Below, in pieces: positions 36,037 to 60,226 of a stretch of 64,000 nucleotides of DNA. Each line of letters begins with the position of its first letter. Position 1 is the stretch's first letter. The notes beneath the pieces were generated by a model. That model was given only the letters and a program-made list of their open reading frames with translations. It ran no database searches and was not told where the DNA came from. The stretch is from Bdellovibrio sp. (lineage in GTDB: Bacteria > Bdellovibrionota > Bacteriovoracia > Bacteriovoracales > Bacteriovoracaceae): contig JACPIU010000026.1 in assembly GCA_016187935.1 (NCBI GenBank), positions 186,001 through 250,000 of the forward strand. Reading direction: 5' to 3'. The position numbers and the translations under genes are program-made.

Positions 36037-36126
36037 GGAGAGATGCCAGAGTGGTCGAATGGGCCGGTTTCGAAAGCCGGTGTGGGGTTTACTCTACCTA
36101 GGGTTCGAATCCCTATCTCTCCGCCA
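36037..36126 (+). tRNA. tRNA-Ser (anticodon CGA)
   Basis: Type II tRNA: acceptor ggagaga / tctctcc, anticodon stem-loop ccggtttcgaaagccgg with anticodon CGA (reads UCG), long variable arm tgtggggtttactctacct, T-loop ggttcgaatcc, encoded CCA at 36124-36126. Its 3' end is the integration site of the 7.6 kb element downstream and stays intact on the left side. Confidence 0.95.
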
Positions 36127-36129
36127 TTT
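36110..36129 (+). repeat. attL core of the integrated element
   Basis: This 20-bp sequence covers the T-stem end, acceptor strand and CCA of tRNA-Ser(CGA) plus three Ts, and is repeated exactly at 43680-43699. The bases before the two copies differ (tRNA T-loop here, unrelated there). Confidence 0.88.
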
Positions 36130-36134
36130 CATTT

Positions 36135-37367: not shown

Positions 37368-37609
37368 TCTTTCTCTCCTTCATCAATCCATTTCAGGATT
37401 TCAGAGGGAAAAAAGAACAACTTGCCACCTTTTTTTCTAAACGGGATTTCTCGTCTTGAAGCCAAGTTATACACGTGCCCTACGGAGACACGCAGAAACT
37501 CAGCAACTTCATTTATGCGCCATATCTGATTGATGTAAAAGAGCTGTGACTGTCTATCACGACTATTTTGATGGCTCAAGTTATTGTCGGGGAAGGGTAC
37601 TTTTTCCAT
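37364..37609 (-). CDS. Excisionase/AlpA-like helix-turn-helix protein
   Basis: An 81-residue protein with a MerR-like HTH_17 domain: RINEVAEFLRVSVGHVYNLASRREIPFRKKGGKLFFFPSEILKWI, where YNLASRREIPF forms the recognition helix and wing. Proteins of this type act as recombination directionality factors or regulators of the linked integrase. It overlaps the integrase gene by 4 bp and lies 3 bp after the rep gene, so rep-xis-int form one minus-strand operon. In evolutionarily similar elements this order couples replication to excision. Confidence 0.85.
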   Translation of the reverse strand: MEKVPFPDNNLSHQNSRDRQSQLFYINQIWRINEVAEFLRVSVGHVYNLASRREIPFRKKGGKLFFFPSEILKWIDEGEKE

Positions 37610-37612
37610 GGG

Positions 37613-38848
37613 TCAAACACCTAAATCCATGGGGTCAGTTGGGGATGTTATAGAACCCCCAACTGAGCTTCCCGACAAATACCCATCAAGCATATCTAAG
37701 TTCTCAGCTATGCCATTATTATGAGGACTTGTGACCCGACTTCGTATCCCTTCAAGAACACGTTGAGTTTTTTCATAGTCAGCCCGTTTCTTATTGGCCT
37801 TTTGCATAAGGGGGGCCATTTGAAAGGTGGCCAAAGTTTCTAAAAATAAGTTTGGCGCAATTTCACGATGCGCACAAAGATCGGCAATCATGTCCATGAT
37901 CTGTTTCGCTGTTTTTTCAGGTGCAGTCAGACGGCGCTCGCGTAACTTAATTAACTCAAAAGGGGCAGGTTCCTCAATATAAAAAAGCCTCAACCAGTTT
38001 TTATGTATGGGCCACCGATCATATTTTTTCGTAACGGAACCGTTAGAACGAGTTCTCAGATTATGCCTTTTTGCAAATGTTTTGAGAACGAGCTTGCAAA
38101 AAGAAATCTCAGAGATACTTTTGTCAAAAATTATCTCAAGGAATGGTTCACAGTTTTCCTGCTTTAGTCGTAATTCGCATCGAGTAAGCGGAGTCTCTCC
38201 TCCAATCGCTTCAAGATATTTGTCATAATATTCTTTTTTTCTCTGGCTTCTACAGTGCTGCAACTCCTCCTTTTTATCATAAACAACGAGTTCAAACCGA
38301 GAGGTCTTAATTCCAAAACCAGTATAGATCATGGAGGCATTATCGCATTTATGGTATTCTGCATACGTGTGCTTAAAGTGATAGATATACCCATCCTGAA
38401 TAGTTTGCATATTACTCGCAGGTAATATCTCGAAAGGATTGAGCATGATGTCCTGACAGACATCTATTCTTGTAACACGAAAAGGTATATCAAACTTCTT
38501 AATCAGTCCGAGAGCTATGTCTTGCATCGACTTGAAAGCATCATCGTCTGCAAAAAAAACACCTTTAAACTGAACAGTAAGTTTGAGTTCATTTCCCGCC
38601 ATGTAGACGCTGGCAAAAATGCCGATTGTGGTTAGTTCACCTACTTCATATCTACGTCGAACTTTCTCTGGCTTACCAATGCCAGAAAATAAAATATTAT
38701 CCAATTCATTGGCATAATATTGCATCGTACTTTCAGAAATATCGGTCAAGTCTTTGTCGTCGCGAATTTTCTTTGAGGCAGTAAAAAAAACTGTATCAAG
38801 GGCCATTCTACAAATTTTTTTGTCAAGACTCTTAAGCTCAGTCTTCAT
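37613..38848 (-). CDS. Replication initiation protein, Rep_trans family-like
   Basis: This 411-residue protein resembles Rep_trans/phage-replication initiators that nick a double-strand origin for rolling-circle replication. The characteristic block FRVTRIDVCQDIML fits the family core xxRxDxxxD, preceded by LTVQFKGVFF, and TRCELRLKQENC fits the conserved downstream (R)xE(x)R strand. A nicking Tyr is likely in the YYDKYLEAIGG region but I cannot assign it firmly. An excellent Shine-Dalgarno (aggagg) lies 8 bp upstream. A 27-bp perfect palindrome lies immediately before it, a candidate origin. The acidic Asp-Pro tail is not diagnostic. Confidence 0.75.
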   Translation of the reverse strand: MKTELKSLDKKICRMALDTVFFTASKKIRDDKDLTDISESTMQYYANELDNILFSGIGKPEKVRRRYEVGELTTIGIFASVYMAGNELKLTVQFKGVFFADDDAFKSMQDIALGLIKKFDIPFRVTRIDVCQDIMLNPFEILPASNMQTIQDGYIYHFKHTYAEYHKCDNASMIYTGFGIKTSRFELVVYDKKEELQHCRSQRKKEYYDKYLEAIGGETPLTRCELRLKQENCEPFLEIIFDKSISEISFCKLVLKTFAKRHNLRTRSNGSVTKKYDRWPIHKNWLRLFYIEEPAPFELIKLRERRLTAPEKTAKQIMDMIADLCAHREIAPNLFLETLATFQMAPLMQKANKKRADYEKTQRVLEGIRSRVTSPHNNGIAENLDMLDGYLSGSSVGGSITSPTDPMDLGV

Positions 38849-38862
38849 TTTTTTGTCCTCCT

Positions 38863-38944
38863 GACCTGGCTTTTTTTATAAATCAAGGCTCCCCTCGCTT
38901 ACGCGAGGCGCTTCGCGGCCTTGATTTATAAAAAAAGCCAGGTC
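38863..38944. repeat. 27-bp perfect inverted repeat (candidate replication origin/cruciform)
   Basis: Arms 38863-38889 and 38918-38944 are exact reverse complements over 27 bp. They enclose a 28-nt loop that itself holds a 6-bp hairpin (cctcgc ttac gcgagg) and a smaller cgc-ttc-gcg. The left edge is 14 bp upstream of the rep start. Loop-in-stem structures of this kind serve as double- or single-strand origins in rolling-circle replicons. It could also be a terminator read from either strand, because the arms contain A7/T7. Confidence 0.85.
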
Positions 38945-39129
38945 TTAAAAAAGCGAGGAAACCGCTTCGCGGTTCCCCCGCAACAACTAATTATGCGAAG
39001 ACGGGTGCAAAAGCACCCTCCGGGGGCGGGGCCGGGGAAGGGGCTTTCGCTTCGTGAAAGCAGGCAGCAACGCACTGCTGTTCCAAGTGGGAGGAAAAAC
39101 TGGTAAAGTAACCTCGTCCCACTAAACTA
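38945..39129 (+). other. GC-rich, hairpin-rich non-coding region beside the palindrome
   Basis: No credible gene lies here. The segment is much richer in GC than its surroundings and has consecutive hairpins: accgcttcgcggt (38961-38973), gggtgcaaaagcaccc (39003-39018) and gctttcgcttcgtgaaagc. With the flanking palindrome and the terminator at 39130-39174 it could be a structured origin (single-strand origin) or a small plus-strand RNA opposing rep. Confidence 0.45.
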
Positions 39130-39174
39130 TTAAGGCCAAGCTCTTCGCTAAAAGTTCGCTTGGCCTTAATTTTT
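39130..39174 (+). terminator. Intrinsic terminator, plus direction
   Basis: A perfect 12-bp stem (ttaaggccaagc / gcttggccttaa, arms 39130-39141 and 39158-39169) is followed by tttttaat on the plus strand. The right arm contains the stop codon of the minus-strand gene 39166-39672. On the minus strand no T-run follows, so the main orientation is plus, implying a transcript through 38945-39130. Confidence 0.6.
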
Positions 39175-39672
39175 AATAACCAAAAGCACCAGCACTTTTT
39201 GATTCCCTTTCCAGTATTGCAAAAAGGAATCCACGGGCATTCTTGAATAATCTTGAGTCAGGTCGTCTGGTTCCAGATAGAGCAACTCGTCATTCTCAAC
39301 GCCGTACACGCACACACAATGATTTGGTGGAAAAATGATCACCGGCCTTTTTGCTTGCAATTCCCGCAATAGAAATCGGTATGCAAATTTTTCCCGTTCA
39401 TAGATTACATAATGTTCGTAGCAAAATCCGAGGCGTGCAATCACACGAACCATCTGTGAAATAGAAAGTCCAAATCTCGTAACTTGTGCTAATGAATGAT
39501 CATAGCAAGCCGCCCACATGAGATCATCCAATGCCAACTCAACCCCGTAAGCCTTTAGTGCTCCGTCGATAGAGATGAGAGGGCACGCCCAGTCAAGGGC
39601 GCGCACACTCGAAAAATCATTCTGCTTCAACGGTCGAGTTGGCAATGAGTAGGGGTCAATTCCTGTGATCAT
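39166..39672 (-). CDS. C39-peptidase-like (papain-fold) protein
   Basis: A 168-residue protein without a signal peptide. The layout resembles C39/papain-fold peptidases. The Cys block WACPLISIDGALKAYGVELALDDL (residues about 29-52) aligns with the DCGxxxxxxxxxxYG...L..L pattern. The His block FPPNHCVCVYGVENDELLYLEPDD aligns with HxVxVxG...xxxDP, with Glu-Pro-Asp where the family has Asp-Pro. The catalytic Cys and His are therefore present, but the oxyanion Gln/Gly positions differ. It could be a cytoplasmic protease processing an element product, or an inactive relative. It overlaps the upstream acidic-protein gene by an ATGA. Confidence 0.6.
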   Translation of the reverse strand: MITGIDPYSLPTRPLKQNDFSSVRALDWACPLISIDGALKAYGVELALDDLMWAACYDHSLAQVTRFGLSISQMVRVIARLGFCYEHYVIYEREKFAYRFLLRELQAKRPVIIFPPNHCVCVYGVENDELLYLEPDDLTQDYSRMPVDSFLQYWKGNQKVLVLLVIKN

Positions 39673-39983
39673 GCGACATCCTCCGACTCATCATCTTCAG
39701 ATTCGTCACTCTCATCTGAATCAGTGCAGCTATCATCGTTAAAATTTTCGTCATCATCATCCGATGATTCATCAAGCATTGCGTCTGTATCAGCAATTGC
39801 TTGATTTAAGACGGCGAAATCGACAGATTTTAGCTGTTCAATCAGTTCGTCGATAGTTCCTCTCTTGGTTAGCTCTATTTCATTGAGCGGCTCCGATTGA
39901 AGAATCGTGATCAAGCACTTCGCAAAGTCACAACCACTTTCTCTGACTGAAATTAAAGCTTCACGCTTTGTTCTAAATCCCAT
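39669..39983 (-). CDS. Small protein with highly acidic Asp/Ser/Glu tail
   Basis: A 104-residue protein of unknown function. I start it at the ATG at 39983 (MGFRTKREALISVRES) because ggag lies at good spacing upstream. A longer frame upstream would overlap the preceding gene and has no such site. The first 60 residues are helical and the last 35 consist of Asp, Glu and Ser (DESSDDDDENFNDDSCTDSD). Such tails occur in DNA mimics and in anti-restriction or histone-chaperone-like proteins. The gene overlaps the C39-like gene, so the acidic protein could be the peptidase's substrate or partner. Confidence 0.6.
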   Translation of the reverse strand: MGFRTKREALISVRESGCDFAKCLITILQSEPLNEIELTKRGTIDELIEQLKSVDFAVLNQAIADTDAMLDESSDDDDENFNDDSCTDSDESDESEDDESEDVA

Positions 39984-40104
39984 ACGAGTACTCCTTTCTG
40001 CGGAAACATAATTGCTCCATAGAAAGAAAGTAATACAAGGAGAAAGGCATTTCCACACGAGGTGCCCGCCGGATGTTTTTTTAATCAGCGGGATGAAAAA
40101 TCTG

Positions 40105-40944
40105 CTATTTTTCTTGTAAAGTTCTGTCAGGTTGTAAATACCATGCATCTCTCACGCCAGGATATGGGCATAAGATATTATTTCTTCTTAGTAGATGTTT
40201 TGGTGGCCAGAGGTTTTGGAATCTTCTCTTCTGATACGGATAATTACTGGAATATATTTTCGGATTACATTGGAGAATATCGCGGTGGTAAAAATAAGAT
40301 CGCTTCTCCTTGATATGGTGCTTTTCCACCGTCTTGAGATATTCCATACGCTCATCTGTAAGGGTGCAAAGTTTTTCCTTCCCCACACGAATCACTCTAT
40401 AGTCAGGACTAATTTCCATGTAGTTTTTCAAAGATGGTTCAGTCTTGTCACTTTTGTCATGTGACACGTGGTCTATTATCCCTGTGCCTTCTACGGTGGC
40501 GAAACCTTTTGTGTCTATAAACAAATCATCTTCAGAAAACACTTGCGATGTACCAAACTGAATAACACCCGCTTTAAACGGAAGGGAAAGAAACTTTTGT
40601 TCTCTAAAAGATGGCATTTGCTTCTTTAAAATAAATGCAAATGAAGAATTTGCTATTTTGCAACGCTGCCTTTTTATATGGTAGGTGAAGATAAGATCAT
40701 TATTGTCTTCCGCATACTTCTCTTTATTAGTTGTAACCGACCTACATACACACCTCAACTCGCTCTCTAACTCAGTGGAAATGTCATCCCAATATTTAGA
40801 AATGACGACAAGTTCATCGCGAACCATGGCGTAAGCATCGAATTTATAGTTTTCAATATTCTCTATCAGCTCGCGTCTCTTGTATTGGCCATCGTTCAGA
40901 TATTCGGCAAATGTTGGTAATTTGTCCAAGGCGGCAGAATCCAT
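40105..40944 (-). CDS. Hypothetical protein of the integrated element
   Basis: This 279-residue soluble protein is not recognised. A strong ribosome-binding site (aaaggagaa) precedes the ATG at 40944. The N-terminal 70 residues are helical (KRRELIENIENYKFDAYAMVRDELVVISKYWDD). The middle is beta-rich (FLSLPFKAGVIQFGTS), and the C-terminus is basic and aromatic (YFYHRDILQCNPKIYSSNYPYQKRRFQNL). There is no signal peptide or membrane helix. It is the first gene downstream of a phased T-tract array. A mobilisation or DNA-binding role is conceivable from the basic tail, but no family can be named. Confidence 0.55.
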   Translation of the reverse strand: MDSAALDKLPTFAEYLNDGQYKRRELIENIENYKFDAYAMVRDELVVISKYWDDISTELESELRCVCRSVTTNKEKYAEDNNDLIFTYHIKRQRCKIANSSFAFILKKQMPSFREQKFLSLPFKAGVIQFGTSQVFSEDDLFIDTKGFATVEGTGIIDHVSHDKSDKTEPSLKNYMEISPDYRVIRVGKEKLCTLTDERMEYLKTVEKHHIKEKRSYFYHRDILQCNPKIYSSNYPYQKRRFQNLWPPKHLLRRNNILCPYPGVRDAWYLQPDRTLQEK

Positions 40945-49153: not shown

Positions 49154-50428
49154 ATGACAATGCAAAAACTTTCACGCGTAGGCCTTGGCGGATACAGAAT
49201 GAGTATCAAATCACAGGAGCATGAGGAAGCCTTACGTCTTGCACTCGACCTTGGTTGCAATTTAATTGATACTTCGACTAACTATACGTATGGAGATTCA
49301 GAATTATTAATTGGGAAAGTGTTGGCAGATTATAAAGGTCCAAGACCTACTATTATCAGTAAGGCCGGTTATATTCAGGGGCCTAACCTCAAACAATATG
49401 AGGAGTTACGATCGAATGGAAAAGCAAAGGAAGATTTAGTTGATTTAGGGCAAGATTTTAAGCATTCGATTCATCCGGAATTCTTGGAAAACCAAATTAC
49501 TTTATCTCTTGCTCGACTTGGAGCACAGGATATCGACTTTTTTTTACTCCACAATCCTGAGAACTACTTTAAAACGAAAGGGCCATCTGAGGAAATCTAT
49601 TTGCAGAGATTGAAAAAAGCTTTTATGCATCTTGAAGAAGAGGTTTTTCGAGGGCGAATAAAATATTATGGGATTAGTTCAAATACTTTTCCCAGTAACC
49701 CTACCGATTCCAACTACTCTAATTTAGAAAAAATTTTGAGTGTAGCAAAATCAGTTGCCAGGAATCACCACTTTAAAATGATTCAATTTCCAATGAATCT
49801 GATAGAACGTGGGGCTTTAGGACAACGCTTTGGTGAGAAAAATTTAATCCAATTTGCAAAGATTAATAATCTCGTAACAATGGCCAATAGACCCTTGAAT
49901 GCATTTGCTCCAGATGGTTTTTTAAGACTCGCTCAATATGTTTCCATGATTCCCACACTCCACGAGTGTGGTGAAATGCTATCGGAAAGGTTAGAGATGC
50001 TTCAGCGAATAGTTGACCAGCGACATGTTGAAGAGCATATCAATATTCATGAGTTGCCATTTATCAAACAGTTCAAGGAAATATGGGCCACATTGCCAAC
50101 ACCGGATGTTGTTGAACAAGTATTCATATGCAATTTCTTTCCACTAATTGCACAGCTATATGGAAGTGCACTCTCATTGGAAGAATCTAAACCCTATTAC
50201 ATGCTTTACGACATTGCATTATCTCGGTCACGTCAATTAATGACAGAAAGAGCTTCGAAATATAGGGTGAAACTCGAAGATGAAGGCATTATTGTTCCCC
50301 ATGCAAATCAACCTCTTCCTGTTCTTGCAATCCAAAAATATTTGGAATGGGGTGTGGATCATGTTTTGGTGGGCATGAAGCGCCCACAATATGTGCGAGA
50401 GCTTCAAGCCTTTTTTCCCGCGAACTAA
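49154..50428 (+). CDS. Aldo/keto reductase family oxidoreductase
   Basis: A protein of about 424 residues with an aldo/keto reductase N-terminal domain: RVGLGGYRM, NLIDTSTNYTYGDSELLIGKVL (the Asp and Tyr of the catalytic tetrad), TIISKAGYIQGPN (Lys) and IDFFLLHNPENY (His). GRIKYYGISSNTF and HFKMIQFPMNLIERGAL match the NADPH-binding strands. At the C-terminus, NQPLPVLAIQKYLEWGVDHVLVGMKRPQYVRE is a variant of the usual end. It is longer than most members. Starts at 49145 (TTG), 49154 and 49160 (ATG) are possible. It ends convergently, 4 bp into the FliF/FliG-like gene. Confidence 0.85.
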   Translation: MTMQKLSRVGLGGYRMSIKSQEHEEALRLALDLGCNLIDTSTNYTYGDSELLIGKVLADYKGPRPTIISKAGYIQGPNLKQYEELRSNGKAKEDLVDLGQDFKHSIHPEFLENQITLSLARLGAQDIDFFLLHNPENYFKTKGPSEEIYLQRLKKAFMHLEEEVFRGRIKYYGISSNTFPSNPTDSNYSNLEKILSVAKSVARNHHFKMIQFPMNLIERGALGQRFGEKNLIQFAKINNLVTMANRPLNAFAPDGFLRLAQYVSMIPTLHECGEMLSERLEMLQRIVDQRHVEEHINIHELPFIKQFKEIWATLPTPDVVEQVFICNFFPLIAQLYGSALSLEESKPYYMLYDIALSRSRQLMTERASKYRVKLEDEGIIVPHANQPLPVLAIQKYLEWGVDHVLVGMKRPQYVRELQAFFPAN

Positions 50429-52512
50429 GCAGCAGCTTTTACAGCACGATTGGTAGCTGTTTTTTCAGGATCTACAGCATGGGCAGCCATTTCAGGAGAT
50501 TCACCACCCATTATTTTATCGGCCCACTGTGTGATCATATTGTCATAATCGGAAGCGTTTAATTTATCGTTTCGAATTATTTTTCGAGTATAATCGACAA
50601 ATTCCTTCCAAACAGTATCTGGCGTTTCACGAATCTTACGCTGAATAACCAAATCGTTTTCGACTTTTTCCAATTCTAGGGTGAGCATATCGCTGGCCTT
50701 AGAACCCTTGGGAGCAAAAAGATTGACAAATTTTTCTCGTAAATCATCCTTAAGGGTTGAGACGAGTTCAATTTTCTGTGCCATAGGATACTGTTGCAAG
50801 GCCGATTTTAGAATCTTGTCGGGTAAAACAGGGACAAGCACTGCTGGGAAATTACTAAGGGCAATCTTTTTTAAAGTATCGACATCCTCACCACTTTGGG
50901 CCAAGGCCTTAAATAGTGAGTTTTCACGTGCAGGCATGGAAATCGGAATGAGATCGATAATTTTTTCCAAGAAGGGTATTCTTGTTTTTTGTTCCTTGTA
51001 TTTTGCAAGTTTTGATTTGAATTCACTTAACATTTGACCAACATCTTCACGCCTATATTCCATACCACGCGCAATCGCTAATTCGACATATTCCTCGTCC
51101 AGATTTTCGAGAATTTTAGCGATAAATTTAGAGGACATAACGTTCATAAGGATTTTCCCCAAATCGGGATTTTCTTTAACAAATTGAGCAGCTCTTTCAG
51201 GATTGATTCGCATAAGCGTATCACAAGCCTCCGCATCGACAATGGCCGAAGGAACAAGAATATCTTCTACGATCTGATTGGAAATGTAAGCATTGGTCTC
51301 TACAAGATCTGTTCCAATGACTTGCTTGTCTAAGAATGACTTCCAAAGGTCACGTTCCTCTTGAGTTAGTTTAGCAAAAATTTTAAGAAGAGTGTCATTT
51401 TTGAGTTGCTGAACCAAAGCGCGCAAAGCGTTTTTCTCCTTATTTTCACCACTAGCAATCCATTTTTTAACAAGCATAACAGCTTCCACCGGGGAATGGT
51501 CCAAGAAGGTTTGATACCGCTCTACCCCGGCAACGGCTGATGTATTCTCTTGATCAAAAGGTCCGGCAGGACCGCCAGTTGCAGCTTTCTCATCATCTTC
51601 TTCATCTTCATCTTTCTGAGTTTGTGCAGCCAAAGCCTGCGCTTGTGCATCATTCTTATCTTTATCTAATTTTGCCCATTTATTGAATAGAGTAAAGGCA
51701 ATGAGACCAATTACAATAGCGGCCAAGATCAAGCCGAGCATGTTTGAAAATCGTGACATGAGCGCCAAGATTTCGCCAACAGAAGTTGGCAGGTCGAGTC
51801 CTGACTTCTTTTCCTCCATATTGATGTAAGTAATCTCAAGTTCTGGAGTGATATCGTTAAGATTGAACTTGAGAGTATTCAACATCTTTTTAATATTTTC
51901 ACGAGTCGTGGGATGCAATTTTTCACTGAGTTGAATATAGATTTTAACACTTTCTAAGTTGTTAAAAATATCCAAACTTTTATTGTATTTCCATAACTGT
52001 TCAAAGGGAGGAAGTGGTTCTTTCTTTTTATCTCCTCCTGTCTTTCCCTTTTCATCTTTGAAATCATTGAAATCTTCAATGAGAGGAGCTTCTAAGCCAA
52101 GTTTTGAAAAAACGATATAATCTTTAGGTAGTTGGTCAGGAAGTATATCCTTTATTTTTACTTTGCCTTTCTCATCCTCGCCTGCTCCATCGCCAGCACC
52201 GTCCTCACCATCCTGAGGCGTAAATTTGGGTTTGGTAGCTTGATTTACATTAATTTCCACATCAACAAGATATTCATTTGATTTGATGATTCGAGAAAGG
52301 GCAGTTCTCACCTTCTCACCAACCGCCTTTTCCAGGCCGACTTTCTGCCAGTCAAGCGAAGGTAAAAAAGAGCCACTGGTAGGAATCTCAGTGGCGTTTG
52401 CACTGAGCAAGAAAACATTGAGAAATACTGCAATAGATTTACGAACAGAAACTCCAATGTTCATAGATTTCTTCCCCGGCCTTAAAATATTAAAAAGAGG
52501 ATGATTTTTCAT
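50425..52512 (-). CDS. FliF/FliG-like fusion membrane protein
   Basis: This 695-residue protein resembles the end of FliF joined to FliG. After a signal-like N-terminus (a nearer ATG at 52464 starts MNIGVSV), residues about 55-235 resemble the FliF periplasmic ring-building domain: KVRTALSRIIKSNEYLVDVEINV, then VKIYIQLSEKLHPTTRENIKKMLNTLKF. A single membrane helix spans about 257-275. The cytoplasmic part carries DHSPVEAVMLVKKWI, like the EHPQ motif of FliG, and a C-terminal helical domain (PVLPDKILKSALQQYPMAQK, then KDDLREKFVNLFAPKGSKASDMLTLELEKVEND) with the pattern of the FliG torque domain. N-terminal FliF domains are absent. It is last in a six-gene minus-strand cluster beside motAB. Confidence 0.62.
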   Translation of the reverse strand: MKNHPLFNILRPGKKSMNIGVSVRKSIAVFLNVFLLSANATEIPTSGSFLPSLDWQKVGLEKAVGEKVRTALSRIIKSNEYLVDVEINVNQATKPKFTPQDGEDGAGDGAGEDEKGKVKIKDILPDQLPKDYIVFSKLGLEAPLIEDFNDFKDEKGKTGGDKKKEPLPPFEQLWKYNKSLDIFNNLESVKIYIQLSEKLHPTTRENIKKMLNTLKFNLNDITPELEITYINMEEKKSGLDLPTSVGEILALMSRFSNMLGLILAAIVIGLIAFTLFNKWAKLDKDKNDAQAQALAAQTQKDEDEEDDEKAATGGPAGPFDQENTSAVAGVERYQTFLDHSPVEAVMLVKKWIASGENKEKNALRALVQQLKNDTLLKIFAKLTQEERDLWKSFLDKQVIGTDLVETNAYISNQIVEDILVPSAIVDAEACDTLMRINPERAAQFVKENPDLGKILMNVMSSKFIAKILENLDEEYVELAIARGMEYRREDVGQMLSEFKSKLAKYKEQKTRIPFLEKIIDLIPISMPARENSLFKALAQSGEDVDTLKKIALSNFPAVLVPVLPDKILKSALQQYPMAQKIELVSTLKDDLREKFVNLFAPKGSKASDMLTLELEKVENDLVIQRKIRETPDTVWKEFVDYTRKIIRNDKLNASDYDNMITQWADKIMGGESPEMAAHAVDPEKTATNRAVKAAA

Positions 52513-52515
52513 CTC

Positions 52516-53142
52516 TCACCCGCCTGTTGCTTGCTGTAATTTAAATTTTTCTTCGAGATAGTTTTTCATAATAAAGGCGTCACGGTTGTCTGCGTTCATG
52601 CTGAAGGCCTTGCGGTAATAACTTAAGGCCTTGGAAAAATCCTTGCTTAGATAATAGGTACTCGCTTTAAGTTCATAAACTACAGAATAATGCGGAAAAT
52701 CTTTCTCAAGCTGGTCCAATCTCTTGAGCGCGTCGACATAATCCTTAATACGAATTTGACGTTGAACCTCAAAAAGTTGAGTTACCAAATAATCAACATC
52801 TTTTACAAGCTTTAGGTTTTTTGATACTTCCAAGTTGACGGAAAGTTCAATGTCGTTGCTACCTGTGCGTGTGAGCAGTAATCGATAAGAATCAAAACCT
52901 TCCTTGCTAATTTCCAAGATAAACACATTGCTCTTGGCAAAATTATTTACAACTTCATTCATAGGAATTTTTAAAGGTGTCCTACCAATTTTGACACCGG
53001 GATCATTACTAGTTGATTTGATAAAGATATCCGCTTGCTCAGGGTTACTGGTGATAGTCAGATCCTCAGCAAAACCAGAATGAGAAAAGAGACCGAAAAC
53101 TGAAGTCAAAATCAAGATGAGTAAGATATATTTTGTTGCCAT
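52516..53142 (-). CDS. PEGA/TPR-type periplasmic protein
   Basis: A 208-residue exported protein (signal peptide ending HSGFAED). Residues about 26-100 form a PEGA-like domain (LTITSNPEQADIFIKSTSNDPGVKIGRTPLKIPM), a small beta-fold found in surface-associated proteins. A TPR region follows (YSVVYELKASTYYLSKDFSKALSYYRKAFSMNADNRDAF). Start codon ATG at 53142 has a strong Shine-Dalgarno (aaggagt). It lies 3 bp before the FliF/FliG-like gene, so they are co-translated. The likely role is scaffolding of an envelope complex. Confidence 0.72.
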   Translation of the reverse strand: MATKYILLILILTSVFGLFSHSGFAEDLTITSNPEQADIFIKSTSNDPGVKIGRTPLKIPMNEVVNNFAKSNVFILEISKEGFDSYRLLLTRTGSNDIELSVNLEVSKNLKLVKDVDYLVTQLFEVQRQIRIKDYVDALKRLDQLEKDFPHYSVVYELKASTYYLSKDFSKALSYYRKAFSMNADNRDAFIMKNYLEEKFKLQQATGG

Positions 53143-53235
53143 AGGAATATACTCCTTCGTTTATTCATTCGGAACAAACGTGGAAGTGTATTAAGATTTG
53201 ACAGTACATTTTAGGAGAAGGAAGAGTTTGCCGAT

Positions 53236-53862
53236 TTATTCCAGGTAATAACTTAAACCAACGAAAACCTTGAAACCGATAGTTGACGAGGATACTCCGG
53301 TTCCTCGACTGATTCCAGCTTCGCCTCGTAATCCATAGTCACGCTTGAAATTTAGAACCCCGCCACCGTGCAGTTCAATATCGAAAATCAAATCTGATTT
53401 CTTTGCAGTCGTTGTATTGTAGACCACAAAACCGATCCCGGCAGATGGACCCCAATAGAAGCGCATGGTGGGATTCATGGTCAAAGAAGTTCCTGAATCA
53501 CTAAAAGTGAACATGGAACTTAGTGAGTTCATGTAAAAATTCATTCCCAATCCACCCAAGAAGAAACCCGCCCCATCAGAGGATAAAAGTGGCGCCACCG
53601 CCCTTATAAAGTAGGATTTTGTGGCATAATTGAGAAATTCGTAAGTTACATCGCCCGAAATAACTGCTGCGGTGGCAGACTGTGCCTCCGAGGCGGTATT
53701 CGACTCTGTTTCCGTACTTCCAGCTGCAGCGGAAAGTGTAGACGCGTTCTCAGTGATGTTCACTGACACGAATCCTAAGCTTGTTGTCATGACTTGATGG
53801 TAATTGCTTGTGGCCATTGCCGTTTGGGCCATAAAAGCAAAGATAATGACAAGAATTCTCAT
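53236..53862 (-). CDS. Small outer-membrane beta-barrel protein
   Basis: A 208-residue protein with signal peptide (FAFMAQTAMA) and alternating amphipathic strands such as GAGFFLGGLGMNFYMNSL, TMRFYWGPSAGIGFVVYN and TIGFKVFVGLSYYLE. A low-complexity Ala/Thr/Ser loop follows the N-terminus (TLSAAAGSTETESNTASEAQ). The size suits an 8-stranded barrel. The closing residue is Glu rather than Phe, so the C-terminal strand differs from the classic Bam signal. Its place in the cluster suggests it anchors the complex in the outer membrane. Confidence 0.65.
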   Translation of the reverse strand: MRILVIIFAFMAQTAMATSNYHQVMTTSLGFVSVNITENASTLSAAAGSTETESNTASEAQSATAAVISGDVTYEFLNYATKSYFIRAVAPLLSSDGAGFFLGGLGMNFYMNSLSSMFTFSDSGTSLTMNPTMRFYWGPSAGIGFVVYNTTTAKKSDLIFDIELHGGGVLNFKRDYGLRGEAGISRGTGVSSSTIGFKVFVGLSYYLE

Positions 53863-53887
53863 TACACCATTATAGCAAATGGTGGTG

Positions 53888-55843
53888 TCATTGAAAGTCT
53901 TTCGGGCGAAGAGTTGAATTTTGTTTGCTCTTTTTTTCTTTTGTTGCCGTCGTAGCTTGAGAGTCTTTTACTTTTTCAGCTGTTTTGACGACTCGATGAA
54001 CCCGGCGTCTCTTTTCTAGCGTTTGCAGGTTAAAAAGAGCGTCGTCTGATTCAGTTAGCTCCCACTCGATTACAGCGTCATCCAGCCCATCTTTTTGTAC
54101 ATTTTTGAGAGTGATGCGGCCATTATATTTTTGGAAGGAATTTTCGATTTGTTCCAAATAGGCCGATAAAGATGGATAGGTTTTATCCCGAAAGACTAAT
54201 GGAGCGGTTACTTCTCTAAATTTGTGACCTGGAATAGCAAAAGTCATACTAAAAACATCACCCACTTTTTGATAGGTTGCGGTTAATCGACGGGAATTAA
54301 TTTGAGCGAGATAAATCACTAGTCCTGTCAAAAATGTTTTGAGGTTTTTACGCATGAGCACTTTGTCAAAAGCAATATAAACAGGTCGATCATCCTCGAC
54401 TTTAAAGAGTGTATCAGTAGTTTGGAAAAGATAAGAGATTTCGCTAGAGACTTCAGAAATTGTCTCTCCCGCTTCATAAATATCAACACCGGGAATATCT
54501 GTGAATGGGGACAATCGAGATATGGTTTTCTGCATTTCAGCTTGGTAATTATAAATTGGCACAAATTCCAAAACACGCTTTTCTGCTGCTTCAGATGAGG
54601 TCTTGGGTGTTTTACTTGCCAATTTAAGCTCTTTACCTGGTCGTCCTAATATGGATACAGCTCCCTCGATTCCAAGCGCACTATTGGATCGTACGATGTG
54701 ACTTTCGAGAAGTTGATTCCAATTATAGTCTCTCGATGGATCTAATCCTAATGTCTGATAGAAACTATGACTGGCCCAAGTGATATTTTCCGCAGCATCT
54801 GTAACCGCAGTGGCGGTGGTCATGTTTTCCGCAAGAAAACGGCTTAATGATGAACCTCGAATTTGATTCGCATCAGGATGTATGCTGGATGTGACTTCAG
54901 GTGCCATAACGGAAACAGTTACAGAATTCTGGGCCTTAGGTCTGGAAAAAATTCTCGCGATGGCCAAAAAGGACATTCCAAATAAAATTAGGACAATCAT
55001 CATGGCAACCTGAGTGATGTGCTCATGACCCAATCTAAGGTAGGCACTTTGCACTCCAACCTTATCCGCAAGTCGTTCCTGAATGGTTGCAATATGATTA
55101 CCAAGAGAAAGAACAGAGGGCATTTGGGACGCTACGAAGGAGTTCTTATTTTGAAGAGTAATTAGCTTATCAATCAACAATTCGGTTGGAGTAACTAATT
55201 GCACTCTATAATCCCGCACTGCTTTTTCTAGAATTCTACCCTTATCCTGAGTAAGTACTTTGTAAGTTTCTTTGGCGGAGGTGATTGTTTCACTAAGAAG
55301 AATATATTGGTCATGACCAATAGCTACATCCTTGAATTTTTCAAGTGATTTCTGCATGTTTTCAAATGTTCTTTTTATACCATGAAAAGCGATGACAGTT
55401 TCGGGCCCTTTTAATGACGGTGAGATCACCTTCATTCTTTCGTTGATGCTCGCTACTTCGGCATTAATATCATTCAAAAGTGTACCAAAAGTGCTTATAT
55501 CACCGCGACTAATCAGAAATTCATTGTAAGTATTTAATGCTGTCTGAATATTATTTGAATAGTTAATAGCTTTAATCGTGCTATCCCTCATGGTCTGCTC
55601 TAGATTTTTAATATGGCCTGCTGGTAACGTGATCAGAGTTTGCGGTTTGGCGAAAACGGCCAGCTTATTTTGCAGTTTCTCAAGGTGAAGCTGCTCTCTC
55701 CTGAGTATGCTCATTTCTTTTTCTGTACTCAGAATATGCAAGGTTAAAAAAATGCTGATTACGATAAGTGTCGTGCCGACTATGCGACCAACTCCAAGTT
55801 TTGCCATAGCTAAGGTGGTTATTCCATCATGAAACACTTTCAT
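53888..55843 (-). CDS. Two-TM receptor-like protein with PAS-like cytoplasmic part
   Basis: A 651-residue protein laid out like a sensor. Helix 1 (about 17-36) is followed by a periplasmic helical bundle of 235 residues (KNLEQTMRDSTIKAINYSNNIQ). Helix 2 (about 274-297) is followed by a linker and a PAS-like domain near 335-400 (MTTATAVTDAAENITWASHSFYQTLGLDPSRDYNW). A further alpha/beta region resembles a worn histidine-kinase ATPase fold (FDKVLMRKNLKTFLTGLVIYLAQINSRRL), but I see no H-box or G-box motif. It could sense envelope status or only scaffold. Position between the barrel gene and a soluble coiled-coil gene ties it to the cluster. Confidence 0.6.
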   Translation of the reverse strand: MKVFHDGITTLAMAKLGVGRIVGTTLIVISIFLTLHILSTEKEMSILRREQLHLEKLQNKLAVFAKPQTLITLPAGHIKNLEQTMRDSTIKAINYSNNIQTALNTYNEFLISRGDISTFGTLLNDINAEVASINERMKVISPSLKGPETVIAFHGIKRTFENMQKSLEKFKDVAIGHDQYILLSETITSAKETYKVLTQDKGRILEKAVRDYRVQLVTPTELLIDKLITLQNKNSFVASQMPSVLSLGNHIATIQERLADKVGVQSAYLRLGHEHITQVAMMIVLILFGMSFLAIARIFSRPKAQNSVTVSVMAPEVTSSIHPDANQIRGSSLSRFLAENMTTATAVTDAAENITWASHSFYQTLGLDPSRDYNWNQLLESHIVRSNSALGIEGAVSILGRPGKELKLASKTPKTSSEAAEKRVLEFVPIYNYQAEMQKTISRLSPFTDIPGVDIYEAGETISEVSSEISYLFQTTDTLFKVEDDRPVYIAFDKVLMRKNLKTFLTGLVIYLAQINSRRLTATYQKVGDVFSMTFAIPGHKFREVTAPLVFRDKTYPSLSAYLEQIENSFQKYNGRITLKNVQKDGLDDAVIEWELTESDDALFNLQTLEKRRRVHRVVKTAEKVKDSQATTATKEKKSKQNSTLRPKDFQ

Positions 55844-55846
55844 AAT

Positions 55847-56614
55847 TTACATCTCCAATGGCAAGTTTGATTTTCTCTTCATTTTCGACTGGGGGGCTTT
55901 ACTAGACTCTACGACCTTTTCAACTACAGGCGAGTACACAAATACAATAACTATAAATTCTGATGCTTCAAGTGTGCTTTTGTTATGTTGTAACTGGATT
56001 TTGATTTCATCGGATTCCTCTCGACATTTGATTTGGTAGAGGAATCGTAAAGTTTTAAGCTTACTATCTTGATTGTGTCGCATTTCCTCGATAGTTTGAT
56101 TGGTCTTAAGCGCTTCTACGTCAAGGCCCAATAAAACTGAACAGCGCCCATTCTCATTCATCGATTCAGAACTACCACGAAATTTCTGTGTGACACTTAA
56201 GTTAAAAAAATCCGGATATTTTTTTAGGATGCGACATATCTGCTGAAAAAGCTTTCCCATGCCATCGGTATTTTTAGGAATGTTGCTAAAAACTAGGTCG
56301 ATATTTGAGGGCGCCATAAAGCGAATATTATGAGTGAATTGTTCCCACTCACTTTCCACTTTTGGAGTGGTTCCGCTCATTGCCTTTTCATCATTGTTCG
56401 TACGAAAGCTATGCGATTGTTTTTTCCAAAGCACAATTTCTTCTTCAACTCGGGCATTGGCCAAAACCGCCGGAGGTTCGTTGGCACTGCTTGCGATGTT
56501 TTGGAGAAGGTCTGATTGTGCGATTGTTTCAGCCAGACTTTCAACTTCATGGAATTTCATCTGAAGTTTGTTTATCTTTTCGGAACGTGGCAATTTACTA
56601 TTTTGCTCGGACAT
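55847..56614 (-). CDS. Hypothetical soluble protein of the motor-linked cluster
   Basis: A protein of about 255 residues, starting MSEQNSKLPRS. I use the ATG at 56614, which has gaggtg at good spacing, rather than the upstream in-frame start at 56635. The first 80 residues are helical (KINKLQMKFHEVESLAETIAQSDLLQN). The middle and C-terminal part alternate strands and helices (RFMAPSNIDLVFSNIPKNTDGMGKLFQQICRILKKYPDFF). No signal peptide or membrane helix is seen. The end is basic (SKMKRKSNLPLEM). No family was recognised. It lies 3 bp from the receptor-like gene, consistent with an interacting partner. Confidence 0.55.
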   Translation of the reverse strand: MSEQNSKLPRSEKINKLQMKFHEVESLAETIAQSDLLQNIASSANEPPAVLANARVEEEIVLWKKQSHSFRTNNDEKAMSGTTPKVESEWEQFTHNIRFMAPSNIDLVFSNIPKNTDGMGKLFQQICRILKKYPDFFNLSVTQKFRGSSESMNENGRCSVLLGLDVEALKTNQTIEEMRHNQDSKLKTLRFLYQIKCREESDEIKIQLQHNKSTLEASEFIVIVFVYSPVVEKVVESSKAPQSKMKRKSNLPLEM

Positions 56615-56698
56615 GAGACACCTCACCATAACCATTATTTCATAGGGAGATTTTTAATGCAGGCAGGCCATTTTTGCCCAGACAATGGCCGACCACAA

Positions 56699-58555
56699 TC
56701 AGAGCGGCATAACAACAGACGCGTAAGATGTTGTTTGTTCGTTGACGAGCTTGCTTAATCCTTGCGATTGCATTCGGGCCTGCTGGGTTATCAATTCAAG
56801 AAAAGCACCACGCCACAGTTCAATGCCAATACCACCTTCAACACGGCTACCGTCGATGTTGACAGTTTTACCATTCCCTCCATAATCGGTACTGCCAGCA
56901 AAAGTTCTCGCCATGCCGCCCTTAAGAGAAAAAATTCGCCAACCAATGTGAAAGCGAAGTTCTCCGATACCCTTGTACCAAAGCAATTTATTTTCATTAA
57001 CTTCCAATCCTGCACCTTGAGTGTTGAGGTTAACGAATGATTGTGTTTCATATTCAAATCCCCCGTAGGGGTAAAAATTCAAAACAGGAATACCTAACAT
57101 ATAACCAAGCCCAAACTGCTTCATTCCCGGCACACTATATTCACCGCTTTCGACTACTTGGGTAAGACGCAAATTAATTTTCAAAGCATTGGAAGATTTC
57201 GGGTCAAAGCGGAGGGCCGCTGTACCATTAAATCCTATATGGGTGAAAGTATTATTTACTGTAATAAGATCGGTGCTTGTCACCTGTTGAACGAGCACAT
57301 CAAAGCCCATGGTATATGTTTTATCTATTTTTGAAGTCGTTCGATTTGGGTTTCCACTGGGGGTTGGCGCTTGTGCCGTTAATTGAAAAGGAATATCATC
57401 AGCGTCCATGTTGTCTTTATCACGTTTAACAACTTCTGCCTTTTTCTCTTCTTCGTTTATTTCGTCTTCCAAAGTTTTCTTTTTCTTCTTTAGAAGCCGT
57501 ATATGGGCTTCAAGTTCCTTTTGAATCGACTCTGCTAAATCATCATTAGGTTCAGGTTTCTCACTCTCATGACCGAGTTTAGGCTCTTCATCCTGTGGTG
57601 GAGGGGCAGATTTTTCAGCTCCTTTGGGCGGTTTGAGATCAGGTTTTGAATTTCTTTCAGGCTTTTTTGCTCCATCCTTACCGCCATCCTCACCTTCCTC
57701 TTTATTAGGAGGGTTTTCGGGAGGTGTCTTTTTTACCGGGATTTCTATTTCTGGTGGCTTCTTCGGAATCGGGGAGGAACTTGGAACTTTTGGGGTCTTG
57801 ATCTTTTTTTCAAGCTCGTCCTCAGATTTTTTACTTGGGTCTGTCTCTGGTGGTTTTTCGCGGGTCTTTTTCTGTGTATTCGCTTGATCCTTGCCTTCGT
57901 CTTTTTCGCTTCCTGATTCAGTGTTTGGTTGCTTCTCCCTTTCTGAGGCCTTTTTTTGCGCCAGCTCCTTACCGTAAAAAACTTCATAGAGCATTACACG
58001 AGTAGTATATTGGAGATGTCGATCAAAAACTCGTTCGCGGTGTGATTCAGTAACAAGTTTTCCGGATTTACCATTAAATAGAAAATAATCGAGATCAAAA
58101 CCTTTTTGGCCATCACCCCAATGAACTTCTTTACCACGAAGATGAAGTTCGAAGAAGATATAGTTTGCATCACGAAATGCTTGGGTGGAGCTAAACACCA
58201 ATTCAAATTTTTGAGTTCGGATGATTTCATCCATGGCGACCTTTATAATTTCTGATCGTGGATAACTTTGTTTAGTTTCAAATTCCGGACCTTTTACAGC
58301 GATATAGGCACGTTGAATATCTGAGGGAGGGACATCTTTACTACTAGAGCTTGTGGGGGACTGGCCGTTCGATGCAGACTCGGCTTTGGTGTTATCATCC
58401 ATTGCCGTTGCGGCAGTATCACCTCTTTCACTCGGACCACCGAAGGCATAGCTAAGTGGCGCAAAAAAAGTGATTGCGCAAAAAACCAAGCAAAAAAATA
58501 TGATATTTTTCTTCCAACAATGCAGCATCATCTTTATTTTAAACAGTTTGTGCAC
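56699..58555 (-). CDS. Outer-membrane protein with disordered Pro/Lys/Glu linker and C-terminal barrel
   Basis: A 618-residue exported protein. After a signal segment (FCLVFCAITFFAPLSYAF) comes a folded domain of about 130 residues (QRAYIAVKGPEFETKQSYPR...VMLYEVFYGKEL). A 140-residue Pro/Lys/Glu-rich linker follows, then a coiled coil (IQKELEAHIRLLKKKKKTLEDEINEEEKKAEVV). The last 230 residues look like an 8-10-strand barrel (TYTMGFDVLVQQVTSTDL...FLELITQQARMQSQGL). The linker could thread peptidoglycan. Start options are GTG at 58555 or ATG at 58531. It is the first gene of the cluster, divergent from motA across 126 bp. Confidence 0.6.
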   Translation of the reverse strand: MHKLFKIKMMLHCWKKNIIFFCLVFCAITFFAPLSYAFGGPSERGDTAATAMDDNTKAESASNGQSPTSSSSKDVPPSDIQRAYIAVKGPEFETKQSYPRSEIIKVAMDEIIRTQKFELVFSSTQAFRDANYIFFELHLRGKEVHWGDGQKGFDLDYFLFNGKSGKLVTESHRERVFDRHLQYTTRVMLYEVFYGKELAQKKASEREKQPNTESGSEKDEGKDQANTQKKTREKPPETDPSKKSEDELEKKIKTPKVPSSSPIPKKPPEIEIPVKKTPPENPPNKEEGEDGGKDGAKKPERNSKPDLKPPKGAEKSAPPPQDEEPKLGHESEKPEPNDDLAESIQKELEAHIRLLKKKKKTLEDEINEEEKKAEVVKRDKDNMDADDIPFQLTAQAPTPSGNPNRTTSKIDKTYTMGFDVLVQQVTSTDLITVNNTFTHIGFNGTAALRFDPKSSNALKINLRLTQVVESGEYSVPGMKQFGLGYMLGIPVLNFYPYGGFEYETQSFVNLNTQGAGLEVNENKLLWYKGIGELRFHIGWRIFSLKGGMARTFAGSTDYGGNGKTVNIDGSRVEGGIGIELWRGAFLELITQQARMQSQGLSKLVNEQTTSYASVVMPL

Positions 58556-58609
58556 TAAAGCGTCACACTGGCAAAATTTGCAGACTCATTCTTGAGTGTT
58601 TTTCTTGAA

Positions 58610-58634
58610 TTTATATGAAATTAAATGATGTCAA
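58610..58634 (-). promoter_or_regulatory. Possible sigma-70 promoter of the minus-strand envelope cluster
   Basis: On the minus strand TTGACA (58634-58629) is a perfect -35, followed by an AT-rich stretch with TATAAA (58615-58610). The spacing of 13 bp is short, and a weaker TAAATT at 15 bp is possible. It overlaps the sigma-28 promoter region of motA, so the two transcripts may interfere. Confidence 0.3.
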
Positions 58635-58648
58635 AAAGTTACCGATAA
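58622..58648 (+). promoter_or_regulatory. Sigma-28 (FliA)-type promoter of motA-motB
   Basis: TAAA (58622-58625), exactly 15 bp, then ACCGATAA (58641-58648). The sigma-28 consensus is TAAA-N15-GCCGATAA, so only one of twelve defined positions differs. The motA ATG is 33 bp downstream with aagga as ribosome-binding site. The match implies control by the flagellar sigma factor. Confidence 0.75.
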
Positions 58649-58681
58649 AGAGTTTGCACAATTTTATTAAGGAACCTAGTT

Positions 58682-59476
58682 ATGAGTATTACCTCTTTCG
58701 TCGGATTATTTCTTAGTTCGTTTGTCTTTATCTATAGTTTGAAGCTGGCAACTCCTAATAATCCCATGTCGATATTTCTAGACTATCCATCACTTTTCAT
58801 TGTTCTCGGTGGAACTTTTACCTCAGCGGCGATTAGCTACAAAATAAGTCACATGTTCATGTTGTTTAAAATTTTTATTAAGCATGTAGCGGGAGCTTAT
58901 AAGGTCAATTACGCAGAGGTTATTGCAGAGATTATGAAAATTGGTGATGCCTATCGCCGAGGTGAATCACTTGAAGCCCACATCAATAAGACTAGTGATT
59001 TTTTTTTGAAAGAAGCGCTTGAACTCATTAACGATGGGATTCTTGAGGGAGAGCATGTCGTGCGTATTCTCACCGATCGGGCCAATAACATGAATTATAT
59101 GCACTTGGAAGATGCCGGTAAAATTAAGTATCTTGGCCAATATCCGCCTGCCATGGGAGCGTTAGGGACGACTATCGGGATGATCGTTCTTCTTGCTAAC
59201 CTTGGTGGCGAAGATGCTATGAAGATGATCGGTCCGGCCATGGGATTTTGTCTAATCACGACGCTGTACGGGAGTGCAATTGCAAATTTATTTGTAATTC
59301 CCGTATCTGAAAATTTAATTGAAGCCAGTAAAATCGGCCATGTTAAGAATCTGATTATTATTGAAGGGATTAAACATCTTCTCAATAAAGCAAACCCTGT
59401 TGTGGTGGCGGAAGAATTGAATTCCTACCTCCCACCACGGGATAGGCTTGATTGGAAAGAAATTATCGGAAAATAA
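58682..59476 (+). CDS. motA: Flagellar-type motor stator protein MotA
   Basis: MotA forms the ring around MotB in the stator that converts ion flow into rotation by pushing FliG. The 264-residue protein has four membrane helices: two near the N-terminus (SITSFVGLFLSSFVFIYSL; YPSLFIVLGGTFTSAAISY) and two after the cytoplasmic loop (MGALGTTIGMIVLLANLGG; MGFCLITTLYGSAIANLFV). The loop's charged stretch AYRRGESLEAHINK is where MotA touches FliG, and the conserved Pro lies in QYPPAMGALGTTIG. It is preceded by a sigma-28 promoter and followed by motB. The opposite-strand neighbour cluster encodes a FliG-like protein, a possible specific rotor partner. Confidence 0.93.
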   Translation: MSITSFVGLFLSSFVFIYSLKLATPNNPMSIFLDYPSLFIVLGGTFTSAAISYKISHMFMLFKIFIKHVAGAYKVNYAEVIAEIMKIGDAYRRGESLEAHINKTSDFFLKEALELINDGILEGEHVVRILTDRANNMNYMHLEDAGKIKYLGQYPPAMGALGTTIGMIVLLANLGGEDAMKMIGPAMGFCLITTLYGSAIANLFVIPVSENLIEASKIGHVKNLIIIEGIKHLLNKANPVVVAEELNSYLPPRDRLDWKEIIGK

Positions 59477-59494
59477 AGTAGGAGCAGAGAAAAC

Positions 59495-60226
59495 ATGGGA
59501 GATCTGTCAGCTAACAAACCATCTGGTGTAGATACAAGCATGCTATGGCTGGTTACCTATGCAGATATGATGACGCTGATCTGCTGTTTCTTCATTCTGA
59601 TGATGGTTTTTGCTAACTATGATCCTCCTGGTGCTTCGAAGAAAATGGAAGAAGTTTCCAAGGCCTTTAATAAAGATAAATACAAAAGTTCCAATACTAA
59701 ATTTACTCAGTTGCAGGAAGAAATTGCCAAGCATCCTGAGCTTAAGGATTTGATCAAAACTTCTATTGTTGATAACTCTCTTGTTGTTACATTTAGTGGC
59801 AGCATCCTATTTGACAAAGAGTCTTATGATTTGACAGATGAGAGTCGTTTTTTGCTTGATTCACTTATTGATTTAATTAAAGTTAAAGACGCCAATTATC
59901 GCATCTTAGTAGAAGGTCATGACGATAATCAGGCCTTGGGCAAGGAGAGCAAATTCACAACGCATTGGGGTTTGAGTGCGGCACGGGCCTCGTCTGTTGT
60001 TGGTCGCTTTGAATATTTTGGGTTTGATCCTCAAAACCTTGTTGCTATAGGTCTTGCTGATACCAAACCCATTGTTCCAAATGAGGACGACAAAGGTGAT
60101 CCATTGCCCGAAAATATGCGGTTAAATCGCCGAATTGTAATCAAAGTTTTAGAGCCTCAAAATAAAAGCAAAATGGTTCGTCTAGGTCTCGGCGTCTATT
60201 TTACTAACGATAATAAGGGAGAATAG
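59495..60226 (+). CDS. motB: Flagellar-type motor stator protein MotB
   Basis: MotB carries the ion-binding Asp and anchors the stator to peptidoglycan. Its one membrane helix contains WLVTYADMMTLICCFFILMM, with the essential Asp at residue 24. A plug/linker region follows. The OmpA-like peptidoglycan-binding domain has ILVEGHDDNQ (usually GHTDN), LSAARASSVV, ADTKPI and RLNRRIVI. Glycan-binding positions are mostly normal, with Asp for Thr in the first block. Length (243) is typical. The gene is 18 bp after motA. Confidence 0.93.
   Translation: MGDLSANKPSGVDTSMLWLVTYADMMTLICCFFILMMVFANYDPPGASKKMEEVSKAFNKDKYKSSNTKFTQLQEEIAKHPELKDLIKTSIVDNSLVVTFSGSILFDKESYDLTDESRFLLDSLIDLIKVKDANYRILVEGHDDNQALGKESKFTTHWGLSAARASSVVGRFEYFGFDPQNLVAIGLADTKPIVPNEDDKGDPLPENMRLNRRIVIKVLEPQNKSKMVRLGLGVYFTNDNKGE

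Follow-up and report, generated by a model that had tools for sequence, protein, structure and literature searches.

A FliG-related rotor inherited with MotAB stators: a candidate non-flagellar motor in the Bdellovibrionota

What does a motA-motB pair drive when its neighbours code for envelope proteins and not for a flagellum? This question is raised by a locus of Bdellovibrio sp. (Bacteriovoracaceae; assembly GCA_016187935.1, contig JACPIU010000026.1, positions 186,001 to 250,000), a stretch of 64,000 nucleotides to which we refer as the window. According to a first-pass annotation, six minus-strand genes, coding for two outer-membrane barrels, a PEGA/TPR protein, a receptor-like protein with two transmembrane (TM) segments, a soluble protein and a FliF/FliG-like rotor, diverge here from motA-motB and could link stator force to the outer membrane, as gliding machineries do. 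The listing of open reading frames (ORFs) bears out this arrangement, with six minus-strand ORFs (50425-58555) followed by motA-motB on the plus strand (58682-60226). Among the eight proteins, only the stators received confident Pfam or NCBIfam names (Pfam: MotA_ExbB, 55.7 bits; MotB_plug, 44.5; OmpA, 50.5; all above cut-off). Here we report that the rotor is related to FliG and is inherited together with a sub-family of MotA, and that the cluster likely codes for a non-flagellar motor.

A rotor related to FliG

Profile comparisons establish, at the level of sequence, that the cytoplasmic part of the rotor is homologous to FliG. Aligned by hhalign to 31 FliG sequences, the cytoplasmic part of the window rotor family gave an E of 1.8e-4 over 168 columns, while the best of 30 column-shuffled FliG alignments reached 0.054 and the reversed alignment 0.24. 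Searches of the PDB sequences were made with two profiles, one built from the family rotors (A1) and one from nine distant rotors of the phylum (A8). A1 found FliG at E 1.6e-7; A8 returned 11 matches at E <= 0.01, every one of them FliG (best 7.9e-18), and also retrieved the window genome's own flagellar FliG (E 2.0e-8). The rotor of an HD100-like genome (G154) lies above the Pfam cut-offs for FliG_C (40.2 bits), FliG_M (32) and FliG_N (25.5; cut-off 25), whereas the window rotor, taken by itself, stays below them. Foldseek placed FliG at ranks 1-6 for the rotor model (best E 2.9e-4). FliG is a separate soluble C-ring subunit of ~330-350 aa; its counterpart here sits within a 695-aa membrane protein.

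The likeness extends to the torque helix. In the hhalign alignment, K605 and E613 of the rotor align with R281 and D289 of FliG, in what we take to be the E. coli residue numbering. The K605 position is basic in 21 of 24 rotors and the E613 position acidic in all 24; in the A8 rotors, the D288 and D289 positions are each acidic in 8 of 9. The accessible text of PMC12505986 describes FliG-MotA contacts between MotA R90 and D288-D289 and between MotA E98 and R281. The partner arginine of MotA is retained in 16 of 21 sequences (basic in 17), and the counterpart of E98 shows no clear conservation.

The N-terminus of the rotor resembles a signal peptide, and hydropathy indicates one internal hydrophobic helix (residues 248-280). 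An AlphaFold2 (AF2) model, trustworthy at domain level only (pLDDT 67.7, pTM 0.34), runs in the order helix-strand, insert, strand-helix-strand, TM helix and then ~340 residues of helices. VIA-align ranked the FliF RBM3/collar first for this model (Z 10.2; 98 residues, model 50-233) and FliG next (Z 9.8); the isolated FliG C domain aligned over 89 residues at 2.5 Å. The FliF/FliG-like label of the rotor hence stands as FliG-like by sequence and FliF/FliG-like by fold. Two FliF hallmarks are absent from the window rotor, which has no FliF Pfam match, FliF_C (PF08345) included, and one internal TM helix instead of two; of the RBM domains of FliF, the low-confidence model holds one that is RBM3-like.

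Several other assignments were dropped. Matches of the rotor to MgtE (Pfam/NCBIfam) and of the receptor-like protein to PorW of the type IX secretion system (T9SS) were below cut-off and were superseded by the FliG evidence. A second ring protein was sought in the 193- and 322-aa genes between the TPR gene and the rotor of Bdellovibrio; hhalign gave nothing for this set, which was contaminated with MotB ORFs and one spurious ORF.

The window comes from an uncultured member of the Bdellovibrionota. Its rotor is 90% identical in the metagenome-assembled genome (MAG) GWA2_49_15; the other closest named records are Bacteriovoracaceae MAGs, Bacteriovorax sp. BSW11_IV and a B. stolpii MAG. As a separate observation, most genomes of the family carry stand-alone FliG_C-like ORFs of ~142-160 aa beside full-length FliG, often two or more (for example L091, G000:C23:53179-53496, and L092, C19:426877-427161).

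Shared inheritance of rotor and stators

If stators and rotor form one machine, are they inherited as one? We followed both through 95 genomes of the family, with counts tallied by hand from the search listings. The rotor profile matched 36 genomes at E <= 0.001, 33 of them at E < 1e-20; the weaker three were G033 (fragments at contig ends), G035 and G114 (both weak). Scores of the cluster-MotA profile were bimodal, with 35 genomes at >= 302 bits and the next at 243. Besides every one of the 33 rotor genomes, these 35 include G033 and G112, so that cluster MotA occurs in 33/33 rotor genomes vs 2/62 rotor-less ones (p 1.6e-23, with G033 counted as rotor-less). Of the 33 rotor genomes, 31 (all but G059 and G060) have a match to the large barrel-like protein at E < 1e-20; none of the 62 others has one. 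Co-occurrence of motAB with the cluster, a point on which the first-pass annotation had staked its proposal, thus holds across genomes (60 of 62 rotor-less genomes lack the sub-family), and independent inheritance, which would have refuted that proposal, was not observed.

Gene order gave a similar picture. After removal of three duplicates from 42, 39 distinct rotor loci remained. The TPR gene lies directly upstream of the rotor in 37 of them, the small barrel within the fetched stretch in 32, and a cluster-group MotA within 20 kb of the rotor in 28, six of these at 18-20 kb, beyond giant genes. The other 11 loci, without MotA within 20 kb, are taken as mostly short contigs. Since the layout recurs across many genomes, the arrangement is not due to chance.

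By sequence, the window stators belong to the flagellar class of MotAB: a search against solved structures returned flagellar MotA and PomA as the relatives of MotA, and the ion-binding Asp24 of MotB is conserved in 19 of 19 rows. In a tree of 81 MotA rows, all 55 rotor-linked rows fell into one group of 63, apart from the flagellar-type rows (support 97/95); as the bootstrap was unsettled and long branches were flagged, we regard this tree as supportive only. Of the other eight rows in the group, two (L183, L185) are paired with a second rotor type, three (L173, L174, L182) have incomplete context, and three more complete the set. In the wider view of L282 (L285), one ORF is rotor-like (E 1e-7). 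L280 and L281, viewed more widely as L283 (G030) and L284 (G063), have cluster-group MotAB and no recognised rotor. The latter two led us to reject the statement that every stator of this group adjoins a rotor; at L182 and L173, the surroundings are truncated by contig ends or lie out of view. At L283 (G030:C39), MotAB is flanked by ORFs of 1713, 1032 and 1063 aa.

These data bear on a rival explanation, in which MotAB would supplement the stators of the ordinary flagellum and the rotor, a paralogous adaptor, would sit close to the flagellar motor, for instance as a brake or an added ring. The flagellar class of MotA and the presence of FliG in 91 of the 95 genomes would fit this idea. However, the MotA sub-family tracks the rotor and not the flagellum and branches apart from flagellar-type MotA, and the cluster contains no flagellar structural gene: Pfam and NCBIfam recognised no rod, hook, filament or export family there, and the genome's separate FliF/FliG locus is on contig C31. 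The four genomes without FliG_C, all of genus g32, also lack FliF_C, and MotA is found only in the two of them with rotor sequence, which indicates that in g32 the stator goes with the rotor. One of these (G097) has two rotor loci, each with MotAB; in the other (G033), MotAB and TPR lie at the end of one contig and the ends of a split rotor on another. Rotor and MotA are both missing from G087 and G105. This evidence comes from one genus with four draft genomes that are 88-99% complete. Taken together, we consider an extra flagellar stator unlikely.

In both rotor-bearing g32 genomes, a PilZ-domain protein is encoded directly after motB and before TPR (L070:7263-8327 in G097, 31.9 bits; L174:11112-12176 in G033), hinting at control by cyclic di-GMP (c-di-GMP).

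Envelope partners, surface proteins and spread in the phylum

Which further proteins belong to the core of the cluster? The labels of three minus-strand products checked out: the PEGA/TPR match is weak and below the Pfam cut-offs, and hydropathy gives two hydrophobic stretches for the receptor-like protein and none for the soluble one. The TPR protein takes a lipoprotein form in the HD100-like genome. As for the two supposed outer-membrane barrels, the small one is backed by an eight-stranded AF2 model (pLDDT 81.4) with Ail, OmpA and NspA as the best Foldseek rows, while the large protein 'bar' (56699-58555) is conserved, has a hydrophobic N-terminus and is a predicted barrel from its sequence. 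The receptor-like and soluble genes were recognised in one sub-type only (10 and 9 matching ORFs) and were rejected as core parts.

The restriction to one sub-type also matters for the idea that the cluster is a mechanosensor, in which drag on the rotor would be relayed by c-di-GMP proteins and the receptor-like PAS protein as a signal of prey or surface contact. The weak PAS match of the receptor-like protein and the PilZ protein between motB and TPR in G097, with a like layout in G033, are in its favour; yet two of the genes concerned are not core, and an ion-driven rotor would be expensive if it merely sensed. We regard a purely sensory role as very improbable.

Rotor loci are rich in large genes. 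In a comparison covering a chosen part of the fetched loci, ORFs of >= 1000 aa were present at 22 of 24 rotor loci but at only 1 of 20 control stretches taken from the genomes that supplied these loci (Fisher p 3.8e-9). The domains recognised in them are RCC1 propellers, fibronectin type III and Hydin/ASH Ig-like, and in six genomes two giant genes lie between divergent motBA and the barrel gene. An automatic lipobox pattern, too strict for separation, matched 3/24 vs 0/20 (p 0.24); lipobox-like starts (e.g. ..SCVGTIED..) are visible in many giant ORFs, including the single control match. Contig C18 of the window genome (L183) holds a second, paralogous system, with two RCC1-type lipoprotein ORFs that diverge from motA-motB and a 660-aa rotor-like protein (hhalign to the rotor family: E 0.0026, 520 columns). 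A system of this second type is also present at L185 (G002:C23).

Giant lipoprotein genes adjoining the loci, together with outer-membrane barrels as core partners, might also suit an envelope energiser that powers lipoprotein export and display or outer-membrane upkeep in the manner of Tol-Pal or T9SS, leaving the cell unmoved. The T9SS motor of Bacteroidota is, in the sources available in part, described as performing both secretion and gliding. A TolQR-like push-pull, however, needs neither a complete FliG torque module nor a ring domain, and neither a secretion channel nor an ATPase family turned up when the eight window proteins were compared with Pfam and NCBIfam. An energiser of this kind seems improbable to us.

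Beyond the family, the rotor profile of the family matched 87 of 368 phylum genomes at E <= 0.001, and A8 matched 147, its weaker matches being largely FliG itself. At E < 1e-20, hand counts over the same genomes gave 65 for the family profile, 57 for A8 and 112 combined. Loci in other families retain TPR, rotor, a small barrel or barrel-sized ORF, and MotAB. We take G154 to be B. bacteriovorus HD100, G160 to be Tiberius and G041 to be the epibiotic predator B. exovorus. G154 carries a rotor (577 aa), a TPR lipoprotein, a barrel-like ORF and MotAB at ~2.913-2.920 Mb. HD100 motA2 is bd3021 and motB2 is bd3020 in the accessible part of PMC11323537. By position and gene order, the rotor-linked MotAB of G154 is probably MotAB2 (Bd3020-Bd3021). 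In G041, no cluster-group MotA was found, and the genome is not among the listed A8 rotor matches. Three further loci, L287 (G099), L288 (G020:C35) and L289 (G083:C4), show TPR-motA-motB followed by an ORF of 556-629 aa with rotor-like order, and Ig-type or giant ORFs lie near two of them.

Within the window (Table 1), the gaps between the six minus-strand genes are 3, 93, 25, 3 and 63 bases, small enough to suit a single operon, and 126 bases separate them from motA.

Table 1 Features of the motor-like cluster, in positions of the window
Feature	Position	Strand	Basis
Rotor (695 aa): signal peptide, FliF-like ring domain, one TM helix, FliG-like cytoplasmic part	50425..52512	-	Sequence and AF2 model
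Rotor residues 50-233: predicted FliF RBM3-like ring domain, alpha-beta-[insert]-beta-alpha-beta	51814..52365	-	AF2 element order, VIA-align
Rotor residues 248-280: single TM helix	51673..51771	-	Hydropathy; long modelled helix 245-295
Rotor residues 329-668: FliG-like helical part, N/M/C order	50509..51528	-	hhalign, Foldseek, VIA-align, profile search
Rotor residues 605-619: torque-helix counterpart (K605, E613)	50656..50700	-	hhalign alignment, conservation
PEGA/TPR periplasmic protein, core partner, directly upstream of rotor	52516..53142	-	Weak Pfam; locus recurrence
Small 8-stranded outer-membrane beta-barrel, core partner	53236..53862	-	AF2, Foldseek
Two-TM receptor-like protein, weak PAS match, sub-type A accessory	53888..55843	-	Pfam, hydropathy, locus comparison
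Soluble protein, no assigned fold, sub-type A accessory	55847..56635	-	Pfam, hydropathy, locus comparison
Large protein 'bar': N-terminal periplasmic part, predicted C-terminal barrel	56699..58555	-	Barrel predicted from sequence
MotA, cluster sub-family	58682..59476	+	Pfam, NCBIfam, sub-family profile, tree
MotB: plug, invariant ion-binding Asp24, OmpA-like peptidoglycan-binding domain	59495..60226	+	Pfam, alignment

Elsewhere in the window, a tRNA-Ser precedes a recombinase-like ORF (36135-37367) and small, unassigned ORFs (36037-40944 overall), a region that resembles an integrated element. A plasmid-borne system was rejected, with no plasmid match.

A candidate motor and its relatives

What, then, might the cluster do? 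The answer we consider likely is a non-flagellar rotor, driven by MotAB, which would transmit force to the outer membrane and to surface adhesins, probably for gliding. MotAB, anchored to peptidoglycan through the OmpA-like domain of MotB, would draw on the ion-motive force and drive a ring of rotors. Each rotor would be a single chain that presents the FliG torque surface in the cytoplasm, crosses the membrane by one helix and places a FliF-like ring domain in the periplasm. Motion would then cross the envelope by way of the PEGA/TPR protein and the outer-membrane barrels, and the giant surface lipoproteins encoded beside most copies may be adhesins that the machine carries along the cell surface or rotates there. 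Flagellum-independent surface motion (gliding) in Bdellovibrio and similar organisms would be its most likely use. The proposed link of stator force to the outer membrane is thereby supported, because the rotor is FliG-related, stators and rotor persist without FliF and FliG, and barrels are encoded alongside; the receptor-like and soluble genes drop out of the core, and ring formation, rotation, force path, adhesin role and gliding itself are inferred.

Several points weigh against this reading. Most rotor genomes also have flagella, as FliG_C in 91 of 95 family genomes indicates, and the cluster stators could serve the flagellum as well. The chief objection is that the three MotAB pairs of HD100 are described as flagellar stators in sources available in part; going by its title, a 2011 paper reports that a single flagellum owes its motility to contributions from three motAB products. 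Some of the large ORFs counted are plainly unrelated enzymes or coiled coils, and the window's own copy has no adjoining giant lipoprotein gene. The FliF match of the rotor model barely exceeds that of unrelated OsmC-type chains (Z 8.8). hhalign of the rotor family to FliF was not significant, though the correct segment was indicated, and homology to FliF by sequence was rejected; the predicted structure provides moderate evidence for a FliF likeness.

The candidate motor shares features with several known systems. With the flagellar motor (MotAB-FliF-FliG) it has in common flagellar-class MotAB, homology to FliG N, M and C, charged torque-helix positions and, in the model, an RBM3-like fold. 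In contrast to it, a single chain with one TM helix unites the switch part with one ring domain; the cluster has no genes for rod, hook, filament or export; barrels and PEGA/TPR are core; and the system persists without FliF and FliG. The Glt machinery of Myxococcus includes TPR proteins and outer-membrane barrels, partners that the cluster shares with Agl-Glt along with a proton-channel motor. Its MotA is, however, closest to flagellar MotA/PomA and not to the TolQR-like class to which the AglRQS stators are assigned in partly available sources, and a FliG-type rotor is present. If our reading is true, a rotary gliding motor that moves surface adhesins would be shared with the Bacteroidota T9SS/gliding motor (GldLM), as the latter is portrayed in accessible excerpts, which also describe GldLM as non-homologous to MotAB; no Gld, Spr or Por family, including GldK, GldL, GldM and GldN, was above cut-off among the window proteins (Pfam, NCBIfam). 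MotB resembles ZorB of the Zorya defence system ZorAB (best match E 1.5e-14) but matches flagellar models better. Zorya was rejected, as this likeness stands alone and no ZorA, ZorC, ZorD or ZorE match was found among the eight proteins.

According to the available part of a 2026 review (PMC13104615), the gliding machinery of Bdellovibrio has yet to be identified, and gliding is independent of flagella and pili. A description of a non-flagellar MotAB-FliF/FliG rotor was not found in the literature searched, whose coverage left out most subscription papers and bioRxiv. More tentatively, and with some doubt, one may picture a gliding and prey-entry motor of the Bdellovibrionota, in which MotAB2 and a FliF-FliG rotor drive barrels and giant lipoproteins, as a third machine with a flagellum-type ring beside the flagellum and the injectisome. 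The lipoproteins of its sister copies, with RCC1 propellers, fibronectin type III or Hydin-like Ig domains, would then represent different surface tracks, several per cell.

One locus thus supplies a candidate gliding motor with stator, envelope partners and adhesin candidates, and the probable HD100 counterpart brings the question of the gliding motor within experimental reach. If our reading is true, the flagellar torque module would have been re-used to drive something besides a filament.

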